NCBI GenBank assembly: GCA_016235445.1
Contig: JACRLB010000039.1
Location: 1-64,000, forward strand
Reading direction: 5' to 3'
DNA from: Chloroflexota bacterium
GTDB lineage: Bacteria > Chloroflexota > Anaerolineae > Anaerolineales > Villigracilaceae
Length of the DNA stretch: 64,000 nucleotides
A program made the position numbers and the translations under genes. Shown in pieces: positions 2,076 to 9,028 of the stretch (its first letter is position 1; every line of letters begins with the position of its first letter). Under the pieces are notes generated by a model that saw only the letters and a list, made by a program, of their open reading frames with translations, did no database searches and was not told the origin of the DNA.

Positions 2076-3091
2076 GCAATCTGCCGATCCACCTTCCCCA
2101 TCGGGTAATCATCCAACTCTTTAATTTTCACCCACTTCAAGTTTTTATTTTTGGGGATGAAAACAGACTCGCACCGAAACGCATGGACAGTCACCTTGAA
2201 ATGACTGTACGCATGTTGGACGATGCAAAACGCCGCCCCTCTCTTAATCTGCAACCTGCTCGCTGACCTCAAGGCTTTTGCCAACTCTGCGGCAGGGTCC
2301 CCGCTTACCCTCGCATTCGGAAATTCCCACATCCCACCCAACAACCCATCCGCAGGCCGTTGACTTAACAGCACAGACCCGCGCCTCACCATCACCGCCG
2401 CCGCGTGGACGTAGTGCGGAGCCTGCTTTTTCAGCTTCAATACGGGCCGCAATGCCTGCGTACCATTTTTGCGCGCTGTGCATATCTTCGTCAATGGGCA
2501 AAGCAAACAGCGCGGGTTTTTCGGCAGGCAAATCGTTGCGCCCAAATCCATCAGCGCCTGGTTGTATTCGCCAGCTTTTCCTTTTGGCAAATTTTGCGCG
2601 GCAAACGCCCATAATATTTTTTCACCCGCGGGAGAATCTGCGAATTCGGTTACATCATACAGGCGGGCAAACACGCGGCGCAGATTGCCGTCAAGAGTGG
2701 GTTCGTCCATGTTGAAGGCGATGGACGCGATTGCGCCAACGGTGTAGCGGCCAATCCCTGGCAGGGTACGCAGATCTGTCAGATCGAGAGGCAACTGTCC
2801 GTTAAATTTCGAGGCGACTGTTTTCGCGGCTTTATGTAAATTGCGGGCGCGGCTGTAGTAGCCGAGTCCCTCCCAGGCGTTTAATACATCCCGCTCCGAA
2901 GCATTTGCCAGCGACTTTACATCGGGAAATAATTTCATCCATTTTTCAAAATAGGGGATGACCGTTTCGACCCGCGTTTGTTGGAGCATGATTTCAGAGA
3001 CCCAAACCGCGTATGGGTTGGGGTGGCCGCGCCAGGGCATGGCGCGCGCGTGTTTGGAGTACCATTTAAGAAGAGCGGTTGAGAGTTTCAT
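2063..3091 (-). CDS. mutY: Adenine DNA glycosylase MutY
   Basis: The protein removes adenine mispaired with 8-oxoguanine in base-excision repair. Counting from the chosen start (342 residues), Glu33 in SEIMLQQT and Asp134 in TLDGNL match the catalytic pair. The helix-hairpin-helix is LPGIGRYT (110-117). The 4Fe-4S cluster is C188-x6-C195-x2-C198-x5-C204. The C-terminal third is the MutT-like domain that reads oxoG. A start 36 bp further upstream (3127) is open but would lie inside a terminator hairpin, and the family begins near MKLST. No good Shine-Dalgarno is seen. It converges on rnj. Confidence 0.95.
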   Translation of the reverse strand: MKLSTALLKWYSKHARAMPWRGHPNPYAVWVSEIMLQQTRVETVIPYFEKWMKLFPDVKSLANASERDVLNAWEGLGYYSRARNLHKAAKTVASKFNGQLPLDLTDLRTLPGIGRYTVGAIASIAFNMDEPTLDGNLRRVFARLYDVTEFADSPAGEKILWAFAAQNLPKGKAGEYNQALMDLGATICLPKNPRCLLCPLTKICTARKNGTQALRPVLKLKKQAPHYVHAAAVMVRRGSVLLSQRPADGLLGGMWEFPNARVSGDPAAELAKALRSASRLQIKRGAAFCIVQHAYSHFKVTVHAFRCESVFIPKNKNLKWVKIKELDDYPMGKVDRQIAKKL

Positions 3092-3103
3092 TGAAGGGAA
3101 AAT

Positions 3104-3134
3104 AAAAAGCCGCGGCGAAGTGACCACGGCTTTT
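3104..3134 (-). terminator. Hairpin terminator downstream of the 100-residue gene
   Basis: AAAAGCCG (3105-3112) pairs with CGGCTTTT (3127-3134), with GG/CC inside it after one mismatch. On the minus strand the stem is followed by TTTTTATTTT. It sits between the upstream hypothetical gene and the mutY start at 3091. It doubles as the core of a dispersed repeat (3109-3160). Confidence 0.65.
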
Positions 3135-3160
3135 GAGATGCTTCGTTCCTCGCAATGACG
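3109..3160. repeat. Dispersed CGTCATTGCGAG-type repeat, copy 1
   Basis: CTCGCAATGACG (3149-3160) and GAGATGCTTCG (about 3135-3145) match the outer and inner arms of the element at 53251-53347, apart from small changes. The left arm here is altered. Repeats with a CGTCATTGCGAG end are common in many bacterial genomes; no coding capacity is seen. Confidence 0.6.
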
Positions 3161-3163
3161 GGC

Positions 3164-3466
3164 TTAAAACTGAAATCCGTTGCGGATGGGCACGATCTTG
3201 TGCGAGTAATTTTTTACATACGCAAAGAGGCGTTCCTGCAAAAGCATCCAATCTGCCGAGGCAAGGATGCGGCGCGCCTGGGGCATGTCGGTGGCGAGCA
3301 GGCCCACTTGAATTTGCGGATACGAGCCGTAAATGGTAGCCCACGCTTCGGCGGGCTGTAAACCCAGCCTTTGCACGCCGGGCACGAATTCGCCGATGAT
3401 GAATTCGAAATATTCCTGATCGCGTTCGGCGGCGATGTCCCAGGTCATGATCACTTTAACTGACAT
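3164..3466 (-). CDS. Conserved-looking hypothetical protein, 100 residues
   Basis: A small soluble protein beginning MSVKVIMTWDIAAERD. There is no signal peptide, membrane segment or known catalytic motif. Alternating hydrophobic strands at the start (KVIMTWDI) and middle, with helices between, would fit a small ferredoxin-like (dimeric alpha-beta barrel) fold, but that is a guess. It lies 18 bp after the metallo-hydrolase gene on the same strand, so the two are probably co-transcribed, and it is followed by the hairpin at 3104-3134. Function unknown. Confidence 0.7.
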   Translation of the reverse strand: MSVKVIMTWDIAAERDQEYFEFIIGEFVPGVQRLGLQPAEAWATIYGSYPQIQVGLLATDMPQARRILASADWMLLQERLFAYVKNYSHKIVPIRNGFQF

Positions 3467-3483
3467 GGTATACCCTGCGGGCG

Positions 3484-4128
3484 TTATCCTTTTTGGTAAT
3501 CCAGCACAACAACTTTTGTTTCATCAGGCAGGCTCGAGCGGGTCACTTTCAGGGAAGGTTGTGATTCGATCTTGCCGAGTCCCATTTCTTTCAAAAACTT
3601 GTTGAGCGAATCGAGATTCAATTTTGCATCGTCTGTGGAGTAGTGCATCGGGATGACCAGGTTCGGCTCGAGCAGGCTGACCACCTCTGCGGCTTTGGCG
3701 GCATTCAGACTGCCCCCGCCTCCGACTGGGATGAGAAGCACGTTGACCGTTCCGAGCGCTTCCACCTCGCTTTGAGGGGGAATTTCCTGCATGTCGCCGA
3801 GGTGGGCTACTGTGATGCCGTCATAATCGAAAACATACAAGGTGTTGTTGATTTTGTCCTTGCTCTTTTTGCCGCCAGCGGTTTGCACGGCGGTGATGAA
3901 TACTTCGCCAATTTCGAATTCGCCCGCGCCGGTGAGCACGTGGGTGGCGCCTTTGACCGCCTCGCTGTTGTTGTGACCGGGCGCATCGTGGCTGATGGTG
4001 ACGATTTCCGCCTTGAGCTTCAGCGAGTCGTACCCGACCGCTTTGTCGTCGAATGGATCCGTGACTACCGTGGCGTAATTTCTCTCGGTGAGACGAAAAC
4101 ATGAATGTCCGTACCAGGTTATTTCCAT
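3484..4128 (-). CDS. MBL-fold metal-dependent hydrolase (Lactamase_B_3 type)
   Basis: The 214-residue protein starts MEITWYGHSCFRL, the typical opening of small beta-lactamase-fold hydrolases of the UlaG/UPF0173 kind. Candidate metal-binding segments are SHDAPGHNN (about 47-55), LTGAGEFEIG, HLGDMQE and the late IPMHYST. The canonical HxHxDH motif is reduced to SHDAPGH, as in many members of this subgroup, so metal content and substrate are uncertain. It is probably a cytoplasmic hydrolase of unknown substrate. The following 100-residue gene is likely in the same operon. Confidence 0.8.
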   Translation of the reverse strand: MEITWYGHSCFRLTERNYATVVTDPFDDKAVGYDSLKLKAEIVTISHDAPGHNNSEAVKGATHVLTGAGEFEIGEVFITAVQTAGGKKSKDKINNTLYVFDYDGITVAHLGDMQEIPPQSEVEALGTVNVLLIPVGGGGSLNAAKAAEVVSLLEPNLVIPMHYSTDDAKLNLDSLNKFLKEMGLGKIESQPSLKVTRSSLPDETKVVVLDYQKG

Positions 4129-4339
4129 AAAGTATTGCCTCCGAAGAAGATATTATACCCGATGGGCACAATGTCCCCAAAGAATCAAAATGCATCGGAC
4201 TACGGCTTTTGGAAAATCGGCAAAACCTTAACGCGAATTCCGCGAAAAGGCGAACACTTGCGCCGCACGCCAGCAACACAAAATCCAAAATTCGACTCTG
4301 CACAGACCATGGACGCGACGGAGCGGTATATTTTTAGCG

Positions 4340-5479
4340 CTACAAGCTTTTTGAATGCGAGGATTCCTTTGCCGGCAGGGGTTGAATGACATCCATAAAA
4401 CTTTTTACTATCCCGGGCTCAAAGGATTTCCCAGCCTGTTCCTGAATATAGGTGATCGTCTTTTTTTGCGACCATGCTTTCCGATAGGGACGATTGGAGC
4501 GGAGCGCATCCCACACATCGACGATTGTAAAAATCCGCGCGTGAAGCGGTATCTCTTCGCCTTTTAAGCCGCGCGGATATCCGCTTCCATCCCACTTCTC
4601 ATGATGGCAATAAGGGATATCCAGAGCAGGCCGCAGGTATGCGATTGGATAAAGCATTTTATAGGCATTGATCGGATGCTGGCGCATAATGGCAGACTCC
4701 CGTTTGGTAAGAGGCCCATGTTTGTGCAGGATCTTATCTGGGACAGCCATCTTGCCTATATCATGGAGCAATGCACCCTGGCGTAAATAGATCAGGGCTT
4801 CCTGGCTTACCCCAATTTCCTGGGCGAGTTGAATCGTAAGCACGGTAACGCGCTGGGAATGTCCCTCTGTTTCCTTGTCCCGCAGGTCGAGCGCCGCGGC
4901 CCAGCCTTCAAGAGTTGAGTCGTATGATCTCTGCAAGGCCTCGACGAGTTGGGCATTTTCAATCGCCACGGCGGCCTGGGAGGCTATCGCCGTCAGTATT
5001 TTTACGTCTTCTTCTGTGAACGCGCCTTGTTTTTTATTCAAGGCTTCCAAAACACCCGTCACCCGATTTTGGATGCGCATTGGAACGCCAAGCAGGGAAT
5101 TTGTATGGAAGTTGGCTTGCGCGGCGACTGCGGTATTATGGCGAACATCATGATTCACATTATTGACGATCAGCGGAATGTTTTTGGAAAAGATGGTTCC
5201 CGCCAGACTATCCGTCAACGGGACGGGGATTTCAGCCAGTTTATTAATATCCGCGCTGGTGGAGGCGGAAAAATATAAACAGTCTTTTTCCTTGTTGTAG
5301 AGCAGGATACTGCCCGCCTCACACTCCAGCATTTCCACGGCCTTGGCCATAATCAGGTCCAGCACCTGGCCGAGCGCAAGGGTGGAGTTCAGGGTAATGT
5401 TGATCTCCATGAGGCGCTCCATCATTTGCAACATGCGCTGAAGATTGGCGGTAACAGATATTGGCGTTTTCGCTGGCAT
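4340..5479 (-). CDS. GAF domain and HD-GYP phosphodiesterase
   Basis: A soluble 379-residue signalling protein. A GAF sensor domain (about 31-175) is followed by an HD-GYP domain (about 185-379), which in characterised members degrades cyclic di-GMP. Key residues are present: H207, HD at 239-240, HH at 292-293 and GYP at 300-302 in the GSGYPRGLKGEEIP loop. The start at 5479 follows GAGGAAA at 6-nt spacing; a longer form from 5536 has no such site. No partner gene is adjacent, so it may act as a stand-alone sensor. No GGDEF protein is in this window. Confidence 0.9.
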   Translation of the reverse strand: MPAKTPISVTANLQRMLQMMERLMEINITLNSTLALGQVLDLIMAKAVEMLECEAGSILLYNKEKDCLYFSASTSADINKLAEIPVPLTDSLAGTIFSKNIPLIVNNVNHDVRHNTAVAAQANFHTNSLLGVPMRIQNRVTGVLEALNKKQGAFTEEDVKILTAIASQAAVAIENAQLVEALQRSYDSTLEGWAAALDLRDKETEGHSQRVTVLTIQLAQEIGVSQEALIYLRQGALLHDIGKMAVPDKILHKHGPLTKRESAIMRQHPINAYKMLYPIAYLRPALDIPYCHHEKWDGSGYPRGLKGEEIPLHARIFTIVDVWDALRSNRPYRKAWSQKKTITYIQEQAGKSFEPGIVKSFMDVIQPLPAKESSHSKSL

Positions 5480-5638
5480 GGCATTTTCCTCTAAAATCAA
5501 TGATTGCCCATGTTTAGTCCCTGTATTCGTGAACATTAAGGATGATTATATTTTACACCTCCCATGTCGTAATTCAACCCCTACAACCTCGCCCAAAGTG
5601 GAGTCTTCCCCTTTAAAAATGTCCGAAGACAGAAGAGG

Positions 5639-5805
5639 CTACAACTCTCCCTTAAACGCCCCTCCCTATGGTCGCAGCACGGACGGTAACAACGTCCGCC
5701 TACGGCGCAACTCCTCCCCCGTAGCGGACTGTAACTCCCACAACGACGCCAGCCGCGCTTGGATGCTATCGAGATACGCCACGATACGCCGCTGCCGAAG
5801 GGTCG
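5639..5805 (-). pseudogene. hsdS 3'-end remnant, copy A
   Basis: On the minus strand this reads QRRIVAYLDSIQARLASL, then WELQSATGEELR, then LLPSVL and AFKGEL with a stop. This is the conserved C-terminal repeat of type I restriction specificity subunits (HsdS). About 12 extra bases between LLPSVL and AFKGEL introduce an in-frame stop, and the 5' part of the gene is absent. It is the longest of five such tails in 5.6-7.5 kb. Confidence 0.7.
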
Positions 5806-5833
5806 AGTTTTTCATTTACAGCCAAGACTATCT

Positions 5834-6193
5834 TCACTGCTGTTTCTCCAGCGCATACATAATGGCAAGTATAACTCCCTCAATATTATTCATTACGTCG
5901 TTATTCCAAAAGCGGATCACTTTGTAACCTTGCGATTCAAGATACTTGGTTCTTTCCTTATCGTATTCTTCCTGCTCCAAATGCTGACTGCCATCCAGTT
6001 CAATGATGAGTTTGGCTTTTGGCGAGCAGAAATCTGGAATGTAATTTCCAATAGCATGTTGTCTCCGAAAGTTGACTCCAAGTTGATCGTTGCGAATCCG
6101 TGACCAAAGTTTTCCTTCGGCAGGAGTGAGTTCTTTTCGCAATTCGATGGCGCGGGTTCTGGTTTTTGAGTTGCTTCTGGGCGGGCGCGGCAT
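5834..6193 (-). CDS. DUF559 / very-short-patch-repair-like endonuclease
   Basis: A 119-residue protein with the DUF559 pattern: basic N-terminus, LTPAEGKLW, FRRQHAIGNYIPDF and IELDGSQH (about 64-71). P53-D54 with E66-x-D68 fits a PD-(D/E)xK nuclease core related to Vsr. The start at 6193 follows GGAGGGG; eight more upstream codons are open but span that site. The gene sits immediately beside a palindrome (6210-6248) and between hsdS tails, and is more AT-rich than the neighbourhood. It is probably mobile or horizontally acquired; its substrate is unknown. Confidence 0.8.
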   Translation of the reverse strand: MPRPPRSNSKTRTRAIELRKELTPAEGKLWSRIRNDQLGVNFRRQHAIGNYIPDFCSPKAKLIIELDGSQHLEQEEYDKERTKYLESQGYKVIRFWNNDVMNNIEGVILAIMYALEKQQ

Positions 6194-6209
6194 TTCTTCC
6201 CCTCCTAAC

Positions 6210-6248
6210 CTCCCCAATTTCGACGTGCTCTCCGTCGCAATTGGGGAG
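6210..6248. repeat. Palindrome upstream of the DUF559 gene
   Basis: CTCCCCAATT (6210-6219) pairs with AATTGGGGAG (6239-6248), enclosing CGAC...GTCG. It is a diverged relative of the palindromes at 6319-6359 and 7379-7419, and it lies just upstream of the DUF559 ribosome-binding site. Confidence 0.7.
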
Positions 6249-6318
6249 GGACTGTTGCTTTTGAAATCAAAATTTTAGAAACACTCTCAGTTTTCATAAA
6301 CAATCTCAATCTCCAGTT

Positions 6319-6380
6319 CTCCCCCAAATTCGACAGCACTATCGTCGCATTTGGGGGAGATGTCCGAAGGACAGAGGGGG
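6319..6380. repeat. Palindromic repeat next to hsdS tail, copy 1
   Basis: CTCCCCCAAAT (6319-6329) pairs with ATTTGGGGGAG (6349-6359), followed by ATGTCCGAAGGACAGAGGGGG. The block recurs nearly unchanged at 7379-7440. Both copies abut the stop codon of an hsdS 3' remnant. Confidence 0.8.
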
Positions 6381-6500
6381 CTAAAGCTCTCCTTTGAAAG
6401 CCCTATCCAGCACGGACGGTAACAACGTCCGCAAGCGCAACTCCTCCCTCGTAACGGACTGTAACTCCCGTAGCGATATCATCCCCTTGTGGGACGCCAG
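6381..6500 (-). pseudogene. hsdS 3'-end remnant, copy B
   Basis: Minus-strand reading gives RELQSVTREELRLRTLLPSVLDRAFKGEL with the last stop at 6381-6383 (broken here as RELQSVTREELR and TLLPSVLDRAFKGEL). The upstream part is disrupted by a short insertion relative to copy A, and no specificity domain remains. Confidence 0.65.
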
Positions 6501-6521
6501 CCATTCATTAGTTGATATTGG

Positions 6522-6932
6522 TTATTCCTTGCCTGGGTCCTTGAGGGCGGCAATGATGACTAGTATCACAAAAACTAAAGCCAAGCCTTGCAAGAGTATA
6601 AACCCATAAACACCCGAAAGCATTATTATGTAGTGCTCATACATACCTGATGCGTCAACAAACTTTGATAGCTTGTCTGCAATTCCCTGGGATATTGCCT
6701 GCACCCCAAGAGACAGTTTCCAATACCCGATGTAGGTGAGTATGATCATGAAAATTGATGACAATCCCAGCCAGCGATGCGAGTTTAGAAAAACTCTTGC
6801 TGACCTGGATGTAACAAGCCAGCCTGCCGCTATGATCGTAAACCCCATTGTGGAGTAAGACGCTGACAAATATTGACTTCGAAAGAATATTAATGCGTTG
6901 AGTAATGTATTAATTTTATCTTTATCATCCAT
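6522..6932 (-). CDS. Small polytopic membrane protein, unknown
   Basis: A 136-residue protein with a charged N-terminus (MDDKDKINT) and about four hydrophobic segments: near 28-45, 56-74, 97-110 and 113-133. It ends in AALKDPGKE. The start at 6932 follows AAGGA at 7-nt spacing; ten upstream codons are open but lack a ribosome site. It is AT-rich compared with neighbours and lies between hsdS tails, which suggests acquired cargo. I do not recognise a family. Confidence 0.65.
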   Translation of the reverse strand: MDDKDKINTLLNALIFFRSQYLSASYSTMGFTIIAAGWLVTSRSARVFLNSHRWLGLSSIFMIILTYIGYWKLSLGVQAISQGIADKLSKFVDASGMYEHYIIMLSGVYGFILLQGLALVFVILVIIAALKDPGKE

Positions 6933-6966
6933 TTCATCATCCTTTAAATCTTTGTAGTGCATCGTC

Positions 6967-7062
6967 AGACCTGACAGGTTTCATCGTGACCTGAGTCGAC
7001 CATAACCCGCGAACGGATATGGATTCGAGTCGGAAGTCGTTCCGTGGAAACCTGTCAGGTCT
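6967..7062. repeat. Inverted repeat with 16-bp perfect arms
   Basis: AGACCTGACAGGTTTC (6967-6982) is the exact reverse complement of GAAACCTGTCAGGTCT (7047-7062). The arms enclose 64 bp of unrelated sequence and are themselves nearly palindromic (ACCTGACAGGT). The unit has no coding capacity and sits between the membrane protein gene and hsdS tail C. Confidence 0.8.
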
Positions 7063-7064
7063 TT

Positions 7065-7175
7065 TCACAGCTCTCCCTTAAACGCCCTATCCAGCACGGA
7101 CGGTAACAACGTCCGCCTACAGCGCAACTCCTCCCCCGTAGCGAACTGTAACTCCCACAGCGACGCCAGCCGTTC
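7065..7175 (-). pseudogene. hsdS 3'-end remnant, copy C
   Basis: Minus-strand reading ends in LLPSVLDRAFKGEL with a TGA stop at 7065-7067, preceded by WELQFATGEELR. It is about 70 bp from copy D in the same orientation. Confidence 0.65.
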
Positions 7176-7213
7176 GAGTATTCGTGGTCTTATTCGTGGA
7201 CGGTTTCTCTCCA

Positions 7214-7345
7214 TCACAGCTCTCCCTTAAACGCCCTATCCAGCACGGACGGTAACAACGTCCGCTGATGGCGCAACTCCTCCCCCGTAGCGGACTGTAA
7301 CTCCCGCACCGCCACCAGCCGCACTTGAACTTTCGTGTCGATTGT
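7214..7345 (-). pseudogene. hsdS 3'-end remnant, copy D
   Basis: Minus-strand reading gives VRLVAVRELQSATGEELRHQ, then TLLPSVLDRAFKGEL and a stop at 7214-7216. An open frame of 61 codons covers it, but the N-terminal part is unrelated repeat sequence, so it is scored as a remnant and not a gene. Confidence 0.65.
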
Positions 7346-7378
7346 CTCTTGTCTCATATATGCTCTCAATTCCATGTT

Positions 7379-7440
7379 CTCCCCCAAATCCGACAGCACT
7401 ACCGTCGCATTTGGGGGAGATGTCCGAAGGACAGAGGGGG
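7379..7440. repeat. Palindromic repeat next to hsdS tail, copy 2
   Basis: Nearly identical to 6319-6380: CTCCCCCAAAT and ATTTGGGGGAG arms, then ATGTCCGAAGGACAGAGGGGG, again ending exactly at the stop codon of an hsdS tail (7441-7443). Confidence 0.8.
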
Positions 7441-7525
7441 CTAGTGTTCTCCCTTAAACGCCCCTTCCTATGGTCGCAGCACAGACGGCAGTAGCGCGTC
7501 CAATCCGCTCCCCCGTAGCAGACTC
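7441..7525 (-). pseudogene. hsdS 3'-end remnant, copy E (most decayed)
   Basis: It shares with copy A the extra bases between LLPSVL and AFKGE, and ends AFKGEH with a stop at 7441-7443. The upstream ELQSATGEEL segment is partly deleted. The sharing of the insertion suggests that A and E descend from one duplicated copy. Confidence 0.55.
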
Positions 7526-7657
7526 TGTATCTCGCAAATTCATATACATTCTACAGGTATCAGCTTCATTTGGCATGGGGTTACCCCATATTTTTCCCAA
7601 GTATACTCCACTCATCCAATCCTCAATCTCCAGTCTCCAATCTCCAATTCCACCAAA

Positions 7658-7672: not shown

Positions 7673-9028
7673 ATGCCCCCCCTTACCATCATCGGCGGCG
7701 GACTCTCAGGCACAGAAGCCGCCTGGCAAGCCGCACAACTCAACATCAAAGTCAAACTCTACGAAATGCGCCCCGCTAACGCGAACCCCACAGGCGCGCA
7801 CCTCAGCGGCGACCTCGCCGAACTCGTCTGTTCCAACTCGCTGGGTTCCAACCTGCCAGACCGCGCTTCGGGTGTCCTCAAGAATGAGCTACGCACGCTC
7901 AACTCCATGCTCTTGGAATGTGCCGAAGCCTCAGCCCTGCCCGCAGGCGCCGCCCTCGCCGTGGATCGTGAATCCTTCGCGCGCATGGCAACCGAACGAA
8001 TAGCCAACCATCCCAACATCGAACTCATCCGCGAAGAGATGAAAGAAATCCCAAACACCCCCGTCATCATCGCCAGTGGACCGCTCACCTCCGAGAGTCT
8101 CTCGCAATCCATTGCCAAACTCAGCGGCGAAGAGCATCTCTTCTTCTTCGATGCCATCGCGCCCATCGTCCACGCCGAAAGCATCAACATGGATGTTGCC
8201 TTCCGCGCCTCCCGCTACGGCAAGGGCGAACAGGAAGAAGGCGACTACATCAACTGTCCCTTTACAAAAGAAGAATACTACGCCTTCGTAGATGCGCTTC
8301 AATCCGCCGAACGCATTGAACTGCGCTCCTTTGAAGATGCCATCAAAGCAGGCGTCAAAGCGGGCCAATTCTTTGAAGGCTGTCTGCCCGTTGAAGTCAT
8401 CGCCGAGCGCGGCGTGGACTCTCTCGCCTTCGGCCCCATGCGCCCCGTCGGCCTGCGTGACCCGCGCACAGGCAAACGTCCCTACGCCGTCGTCCAACTT
8501 CGGCAGGATAATCTCGCGGGCAGTCTCTACAACCTTGTCGGCTTCCAGACCAATCTCAAATTCCCCGAGCAACGCCGAGTCTTGCGCATGATTCCCGGCC
8601 TCGACCATGCCGAGTTCGAGCGCTACGGACAAATGCACCGCAACACCTTCATTGCCTCACCCAAACTCTTGCGCCCCACCCTCCAACACATCACCCGCGA
8701 CGATCTCTTCTTCGCAGGTCAGATCACAGGCGTCGAAGGTTACATGGGCAATATCGCCACGGGTTTGCTTGCAGGTCTTAACGCCGCGCGCCTGCTCAAC
8801 AACCAACCCCTCCTCGAACTTCCGCAAGAAACCATGCTCGGCACACTCTGTCACTACGTCACCCACGCCAGCCTCAAAGACTTCCAACCCATGAAAGCCA
8901 ACTTCGGCATTCTCCCACCACTGGAAAACCTCCCTAAAAAAATCGGCAAACGCGAACGCGGTCAACTCTACGCCGACCGCGCCGCCAATGCGCTCAACGA
9001 ATACCTAAATCACTATCAAACCACCTAA
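7673..9028 (+). CDS. trmFO: Folate/FAD-dependent tRNA (uracil-54-C5)-methyltransferase
   Basis: TrmFO makes ribothymidine at tRNA position 54 using methylenetetrahydrofolate and FADH2. The 451-residue length is normal. The protein opens with the FAD-binding [14 protein letters not shown] motif (about 8-21), followed by the family blocks [19 protein letters not shown] and later GQITGVEGY and [14 protein letters not shown]. The gene appears leaderless. The M28 peptidase gene starts 20 bp after its stop, so the two are likely co-transcribed. Gene assignment is secure from the family motifs. Confidence 0.96.

Follow-up and report, generated by a model that had tools for sequence, protein, structure and literature searches.

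Worn hsdS 3' ends in a Chloroflexota genome and their probable colonisation by a small palindromic element with a DUF559 nuclease gene

REP-associated tyrosine transposases (RAYTs) are, in the sections of PMC3733652 considered here, the accepted movers of the repetitive extragenic palindromic (REP) sequences with GTAG tags, and the same sections describe CGTC REPs without a dedicated transposase. For the BoxC/PIT/TM palindromes, the triplex class, the part of PMC4666352 drawn on here counts 23 TM copies in Escherichia coli MG1655, gives five inverted pairs, and reports no mobility activities near them. The DUF559 family, including E. coli YcjD, is placed near Vsr in the excerpt used of PMC1189080, and Vsr-like/EDxHD and PD-(D/E)XK enzymes are named as homing endonuclease families in the portion cited of PMC6083498. 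Here we analyse an array in which worn 3' ends of hsdS, a gene of type I restriction-modification (R-M) systems, stand among palindromes and a DUF559 nuclease gene. The array lies in positions 1 to 64,000 of contig JACRLB010000039.1 from a Chloroflexota bacterium (family Villigracilaceae, assembly GCA_016235445.1), and this whole 64,000-nucleotide stretch is referred to as the window. A link between DUF559 and palindromes was not reported in the open-access literature searched.

From the layout of the array and its comparison to related loci we propose, at a probability of roughly 0.6, that it represents a worn hsdS 3' end in which a small mobile element, palindromic and carrying the DUF559 gene, has settled, with DUF559 presumably spreading the palindromes. 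The element and its parts are as follows, in window coordinates.

5834..6380, minus strand: whole element, 547 bp, consisting of palindrome A, a linker of ~70 bp, palindrome 2 and the DUF559 gene; recognised as a unit in other family genomes, left end TAG-CCCCC or AG-CCCCC.
5834..6217, minus strand: DUF559 nuclease gene (YcjD-type, PD-(D/E)XK/Vsr-like), 127 codons, intact, catalytic-type residues kept; PF04480, E 1.7e-40.
6318..6380, minus strand: palindrome A (63 bp), a hairpin TCTCCCCCAAAT..ATTTGGGGGAGA plus a small GTCCTTCGGAC hairpin, directly after the TAG of tail t2; inverted repeat I3 and junction.
6209..6249, minus strand: palindrome 2, CCTCCCCAATT..AATTGGGGAGG, just upstream of DUF559 or overlapping its first codons; inverted repeat I2, 17-nt arms, 94% complementary.
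7378..7440, minus strand: second palindrome A, without a DUF559 gene, directly after the TAG of tail t5; inverted repeat I4, 95% identical to element bases 1-77.

Palindrome A, linker, palindrome 2 and DUF559 make up a 547-bp unit found dispersed, and in this bacterial family its usual starting point is the hsdS stop codon. Used as a query, the block (window:5834-6380) matched in 109 of 150 family genomes, many of the matches being partial and covering DUF559 alone or palindrome A alone. Related palindromes also occur without a DUF559 gene, as in matches restricted to palindrome A in G299 (bases 1-91 at 96%), G303 (bases 1-87 at 93%, twice) and G320 (bases 1-70 at 89%). Base 1 is included in 23 of the 30 element loci returned, and 22 of these were examined (L243 was left out; the window is one of the 22, which also include the nearly identical L224 and L225). 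At the left junction, 13 of the 22 copies show TAG-CCCCC and 18 show AG-CCCCC, an HsdS-type end lies 0-6 bases upstream in 14, and a second tail conforming to the strict motif follows downstream in six. As the element starts at the stop codon, hsdS stays intact. Tails t3 and t4 (listed below) lack a following palindrome and stop with TGA, which suggests, by eye, that the AG of the stop codon is supplied by the element.

The window protein scores 137.7 bits against PF04480 (curated cut-off 20.6), PADLOC returned only a weak DpdF match for it, and a relative of solved structure, 3hrl, is named 'Endonuclease-Like Protein'. The motif D[FY]..[EQ].DG..H is kept in 79 of 80 DUF559 genes, that of the window included, the exception (L069) being cut by the contig end; we take the D..E.D..H residues to be catalytic, by analogy to Vsr. 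Values of dN/dS of 0.05-0.15 between the window gene and three relatives, and of 0.04-0.25 in 10 pairs of related DUF559 genes (an eleventh pair was saturated), indicate purifying selection with active-site-type residues preserved. Hairpins are found only on the 5' side of DUF559 in the window element, not on both sides. Elsewhere in the same genome (L023, contig C11:273400-280200), five to six whole or broken DUF559 stretches lie among small genes, several toxin-antitoxin-like by eye, with palindromes between the stretches and a palindrome-A fragment within a broken DUF559 copy.

The first-pass annotation of this stretch had raised the question of whether DUF559 genes accompany the palindrome elsewhere. 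They do so far beyond hsdS: across many bacterial groups, hairpins with a pyrimidine left and a purine right arm adjoin DUF559 genes, often one at each end in inverted orientation. The loci come from a scan of a genome collection (best 80 of 556 confirmed, 79 loci; not a census), and the hairpin class was defined by a 7-base all-pyrimidine left arm with at least four C, a loop of at most 45 bases and a position within 250 bp, applicable to 76 loci with enough flank; open reading frames (ORFs) of at least 100 aa within the same loci served as controls. Such hairpins accompany DUF559 at 65 of 76 loci (on both sides at 35), compared to 23 of 442 control ORFs (on both sides at 1). The mirror class with a purine left arm is raised far less (16/76 against 14/442), and a stricter hairpin definition retains the difference (44/76 against 15/442). 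With one locus per 60%-identity cluster, 22 of 26 carry a hairpin (both sides 13), against 12 of 144 control ORFs of 100-200 aa (both sides 0). A second Chloroflexota set of DUF559 frames up to 300 aa gave 39 of 45 against 6 of 21 controls, longer DUF559 frames carried a hairpin at 6 of 6, and eight plasmid-collection loci hand-picked from 44 records gave 7 of 8 against 1 of 12. The association is strong. The locus sets lack full independence, with an over-representation of Variovorax and its relatives and of the hsdS clade.

By hand-labelled group, the hairpin is present at DUF559 in nine of ten: Chloroflexota (25/33), Alphaproteobacteria (6/6), Patescibacteria (6/6), Beta/Gammaproteobacteria (23/24), Omnitrophota (1/1), a Mollicutes bin (1/1), Gastranaerophilales (1/2), Armatimonadota (1/1) and Stahlbacteria (1/1), with Muribaculaceae (0/1) as the remaining group. 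The two flanks of the gene frequently resemble each other in inverted orientation (score of at least 25 at 33 of 76 DUF559 loci, against 12 of 448 control ORFs). In Comamonadaceae, inverted ends of ~36 bp occur around DUF559, and 17 of the 18 listed loci lie before the same thiolase-like start codon (genes assigned by eye), the eighteenth being Noviherbaspirillum L083.

An ordinary role of these hairpins in terminating transcription or stabilising the mRNA of DUF559 genes, with no relation to the repeats, is very improbable: hairpins beside small genes are indeed common (any-hairpin controls, 130/442), but the class enriched here is a specific one, marked by a pyrimidine left arm, a far less enriched mirror form and a presence at both ends, and it is multicopy, shares inverted sequence between ends, exists as solo palindromes and travels inside other genes.

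The latter property is seen in frame within coding sequences. At 6 of 79 DUF559 loci, open frames of more than 60 aa extend on both sides in the frame of DUF559 itself, and Pfam places the domain within DnaE (L081), PriA (L067, L099), HydF (L101, L104) and an HI0933-like protein (flavoprotein; L116), so that some copies of the element lie in frame inside essential or conserved genes. The DnaE insert, of ~150 residues, falls between residues 575 and 579 of the aligned chain 5fku_A. In further cases DUF559 is joined in frame to the front of UreE (L073), an aminotransferase (L105), EPSP synthase (L072) and a class II tRNA synthetase (L087), again according to Pfam. In-frame insertions in dnaE, priA and hydF would be explained by a mobile palindromic element, if that reading is true.

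On the minus strand, from 7537 to 5618, the window array runs t5, palindrome A, t4, t3, REP-B, a 146-aa ORF, t2, palindrome A, linker, palindrome 2, DUF559, t1 and a palindrome A stub. Its remaining parts are as follows.

5639..5815, minus strand: HsdS tail t1, RRIVAYLDSIQARLASLWELQSATGEELRRRRTLLPSVL.., frame broken before the last codons, 3' of DUF559; repeat family D1, motif scan.
5618..5638, minus strand: degenerate palindrome A stub after the TAG of t1; by eye.
6381..6484, minus strand: HsdS tail t2, its TAG end abutting palindrome A of the element; repeats D2 and D6, motif scan.
7065..7172, minus strand: HsdS tail t3, ending in LLPSVLDRAFKGEL and a TGA stop; D1 reference copy, ORF 7065-7217.
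7214..7321, minus strand: HsdS tail t4, ending in LLPSVLDRAFKGEL and a stop; D1, 92% to t3, ORF 7214-7399.
about 7441..7537, minus strand: HsdS tail t5, decayed, frame lost; D4 (77%), 88-94% local identity with the other tails.
6967..7062, no strand assigned: REP-B, a separate 96-bp repeat with 16-nt perfect inverted ends AGACCTGACAGGTTTC; inverted repeat I5, related copies separate hsdS tails on contig C45.
6522..6962, minus strand: 146-aa ORF between t3 and t2, with hydrophobic stretches by eye; ORF list.

The tails are worn copies of the last ~40 codons of hsdS, with local identities of 87-96% among the five, and the repetition exceeds chance, a 25-nt core being identical in four copies and the 108-nt unit recurring at 78% and 92% identity to the reference copy. 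What the first-pass annotation had read from the letters of the array holds: there are five tail copies in the same orientation, four clear and one decayed; a palindrome block, palindrome A, starts directly after the TAG in two of them; and the DUF559 gene lies among the tails beside a real second palindrome. No specificity domain, hsdM or hsdR accompanies the tails in the array, and in a Pfam search PF01420 (Methylase_S) was absent from the window's contig (C28), the five matches of the genome lying on C45, C41 and C8. The 146-aa ORF matched nothing in Pfam or PADLOC.

The three tail ORFs searched against Pfam gave no HsdS profile match; their identity as HsdS C-termini is instead supported by intact HsdS proteins that end in the same sequence. 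Relative L040 carries hsdM (2191-3699) and a 459-aa hsdS (3700-5079; PF01420, E 1e-20), after which come palindrome A as in the window, DUF559 and another tail, and its HsdS C-terminus, LLPSVLDGAFKGEL, is the same sequence as that of the window tails. In the window's own genome, an hsdS (PF01420) on C41 ends in TAG and is followed by palindrome A, palindrome 2, a truncated DUF559 and a second tail of the C41 type (90% identical, 114 bases), and on C45 tails and REP-B copies alternate behind hsdS, with no DUF559 there. Relatives such as L040 carry intact hsdS genes with the same palindrome and DUF559 at their stop codon. Of the 21 loci whose DUF559 is nearest to that of the window, 14 have a type I R-M match, tail-only ones included, against 1 of 58 other loci. 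At L069 a tail, palindrome and DUF559 lie ~4 kb from a trmFO-like gene, and its same relative orientation to that gene indicates that this is probably the window's locus in a relative; on the trmFO side, no tail or palindrome A was seen by eye in plus-strand loci except the window's own (30 loci viewed; 61 family genomes searched).

Tail types vary by locus, with LLPSVLDRAFKGEL in the window and L040, LFESLLAEAFS in C41 and LGKAFYGEL in C45, while the palindrome-DUF559 block is common to the window and C41. The tail hence looks like a landing place. Of the first-pass suggestion of a repeat family that copies hsdS ends together with the palindrome, the part concerning palindrome and DUF559 stands, and spreading of the tails as cargo was dropped owing to these differences. 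Alignment of the tail copies, proposed there for dating the duplications, gave 90% for the C41 pair and 95% for the L040 pair at the DNA level, and since the best match of a tail sometimes lies outside its own locus, this does not prove a fresh local duplication. Two further loci, L039 and L050, carry CATTGCGAGGAGC-type sequences (CGTC/RPE-like, by eye) downstream of the tails as separate elements, indicating that hsdS ends attract several repeat families. REP-B is also seen on C45 (L022, around 8500-9000), where a ~95-bp repeat alternates with hsdS tails in units of ~190 bp. Between REP-B ends on the same contig, a 225-aa ORF (L022:7811-8488) appears Y1/RAYT-like by eye and is possibly a diverged REP-B mover; it was dropped as a proven Y1 transposase, having no Y1_Tnp profile match and a resemblance by eye only.

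Taken as a mobile element, the unit may operate in the following manner. DUF559, being Vsr-like, would recognise palindromes or a site in a target gene, and would nick or cut the DNA at palindrome edges or recurrent gene sites. Cutting would then spread the gene of DUF559 itself along with gene-less palindromes, served in cis or in trans, and the surviving insertions would be those at stop codons (after the hsdS TAG), at operon junctions and in in-frame surface loops. In the window, successive insertions of the DUF559 element and REP-B, together with duplication of the target tail, could have built the array, after which hsdR, hsdM and the rest of hsdS would have been lost. A series at the dsbA-smc junction is consistent with such a history: Sinorhizobium K101 has the complete element there, S. 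meliloti Ak57 a version with an internal deletion, and Shinella (by eye) palindromic sequence that lacks DUF559. At several loci the element stands between hsdS tails, with identities that do not single out a fresh local duplication.

Several observations weigh against this proposal. Eleven of the 76 loci are without a hairpin at the setting used, five of which gain one with loops up to 90 bases; the Chloroflexota, nearest relatives of the window copy, show ends on both sides at only 3 of 33 loci; and DUF559 is also found in frames of more than 300 aa. Movement of the element was not seen, and the plasmid collection yielded no clean empty site with a target duplication, the Sinorhizobium/Shinella deletion series being the best substitute; the Azospirillum and Sphingomonas loci provided no informative empty site. 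The in-frame set was picked by a frame criterion and so cannot show a frame preference. Counted genome-wide as CTCCCC-loop-GGGGAG over 201 Chloroflexota genomes, palindromes relate only weakly to DUF559 (small strong DUF559 against the rest, p = 0.054; any against none, p = 0.007), and among 30 palindrome-rich genomes any DUF559 match is present in 18 and a small strong one in 9, the pattern being unspecific and catching other repeats such as a regular array in G148. That array (G148:C20:15615-16582) consists of CTCCCCCCACGGGGAG at ~67-base spacing, is probably a CRISPR, and inflates simple palindrome counts. Finally, tails are duplicated on C45 with REP-B and without DUF559, and hence the duplication need not be the doing of DUF559 and may instead lie in the nature of hsdS ends.

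If only the hsdS array is considered, the tails could be scars of repeated specificity-gene exchange, the other option put forward in the first-pass annotation: each incoming hsdS would have entered by recombination at the tail, with the previous tail remaining as a leftover and the palindromes and DUF559 hitchhiking or initiating the break. We consider this a serious possibility, if one we lean against. Its premises stand, as the tails are hsdS 3' ends and intact hsdS genes of relatives carry palindrome and DUF559 at the stop; moreover, tail copies lie 3' of intact hsdS in C41, C45, L040 and L048, the downstream copies are often decayed, and the identities described above give no preference to a fresh local duplication. 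The exchange itself is less well matched by the array, since no second specificity domain or partial target recognition domain was found beside the tails in the own genome, and two HsdS types share, by eye, the structural point from which the tail copy begins, which is more regular than random scars.

Another explanation inverts the roles, in that the palindromes are the target and DUF559 homing cassettes insert into or beside BoxC/triplex palindromes already dispersed by some other process. Palindromes are in fact abundant where no DUF559 is detected (12 of the 30 palindrome-rich genomes have no match), and such sites can attract foreign DNA, as in Azospirillum argentinense L214, where a ~1.1-kb insertion (about 1240-2340), transposase-like by eye, lies beside palindromes. 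Insertion into a target would however be expected to leave half palindromes, rather than the complete inverted hairpin on each side (35/76) and the ~36-bp inverted ends, and the in-frame copies in dnaE, priA and hydF bring palindromes along. We therefore regard this explanation as unlikely.

Less probable still is a spread of the palindromes by a Y1 (RAYT/IS200-like) transposase or some other enzyme, DUF559 being a passenger or a hairpin-tolerant repair or defence nuclease. RAYTs move GTAG REPs, as introduced above from PMC3733652, and the own genome contains six Y1_Tnp matches; yet the hairpin class is found there at 0 of 7 Y1 or look-alike loci, which other repeats flank by eye, hairpins are kept at 10 of 12 DUF559 loci in genomes without a PF01797 (Y1_Tnp) match, and Y1_Tnp presence relates to palindrome count at p = 0.067. 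We note that each Y1-transposase gene at the own-genome loci L032, L033, L035 and L037 adjoins its own distinct repeat (of the GGCTGAAGCCGCC or CCGTCCCGAAGG types, for example), like classical REP-RAYT pairs.

The proposed element reading leads to E. coli, where the DUF559 gene ycjD lies between sapF and fabI, in the position occupied by eefRABCD in other lineages according to the part of PMC12817139 used here. A 48-base stretch 3' of ycjD occurs at a median of 18 places per genome and is present in 5375 of 5426 genomes; the element itself seems degenerate in E. coli. By eye, and compared by description only, this repeat fits the TTA-loop form of the BoxC/TM motif as given in the available section of PMC4666352, as does, for the BoxC/PIT/TM description, the copy on C53; palindrome A of the window differs from BoxC/TM by a longer loop and an extra small hairpin in place of the plain third arm. 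Tentatively, and at somewhat less than even odds, BoxC/PIT/triplex palindromes may be the ends and gene-less relics of an unrecognised class of mobile elements, with DUF559/YcjD as its enzyme, targeting gene ends such as the hsdS stop, lodging in frame in dnaE and priA, and giving rise to chimeric proteins. The pairing is a candidate for the driving force behind palindromic repeats of a class that has long lacked an explanation, and linking the two makes both testable, E. coli K-12 included. Through it, hsdS loci would also have a nuclease close at hand, potentially driving recombination at specificity genes. As for the window array, it is a remnant, and its interest lies in exposing the general pairing of DUF559 with triplex-class palindromes.

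Compared to known systems, the array resembles type I R-M loci with repeated hsdS segments in that its tails correspond to hsdS 3' ends and that complete hsdM-hsdS is present in relatives, but the window keeps tails only. Rickettsia palindromic elements (RPEs) share the placement of palindromes in frame inside protein genes; RPEs and CGTC REPs are of other sequence (CGTC tag), and we know of no nuclease gene for them. As with homing endonucleases, a small nuclease gene is found at recurrent host-sparing sites, namely the hsdS stop, a Comamonadaceae beta-oxidation gene junction, priA, hydF and thiS-thiG (by eye); these sites, exemplified by the hsdS stop codon at 14 of 22 copies and one gene junction at 17 of 18 listed loci, may share descent. 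In contrast to homing endonucleases, the element is without intron or intein splicing, being translated through or placed after a stop codon, and has palindromic ends and solo palindromes. Vsr-type homing enzymes occur in split inteins.

With the BoxC/PIT/TM repeats (TMECO of E. coli), the palindromes share a G/C-rich pyrimidine-purine-purine make-up, multiple copies and frequent inverted pairs, as far as the consulted text of PMC4666352 describes them, and ycjD carries one such repeat at its 3' side; the palindromes described here differ in being linked to DUF559 and in having gene-embedded copies. The closest likeness in organisation is to REPIN-RAYT systems (REPtrons), in that the palindromic repeats are short, copies without the gene occur, inverted palindromes flank a nuclease gene (35/76; flank similarity at 33/76) and the left end lies at AG or TAG, reminiscent of the GTAG tags of REPs in the cited passages of PMC3733652. 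Unlike in those systems, the enzyme is a PD-(D/E)XK Vsr-like DUF559 protein (PF04480) and not an HUH Y1 transposase (PF01797), the arms are pyrimidine/purine tracts, and copies lie in frame within genes and on gene ends at recurrent sites. The DUF559 element thus appears to work like REPIN-RAYT, yet stands outside that family because it has no Y1 enzyme, the family's defining feature, and if the role of its enzyme is proven, it would constitute a class of its own.

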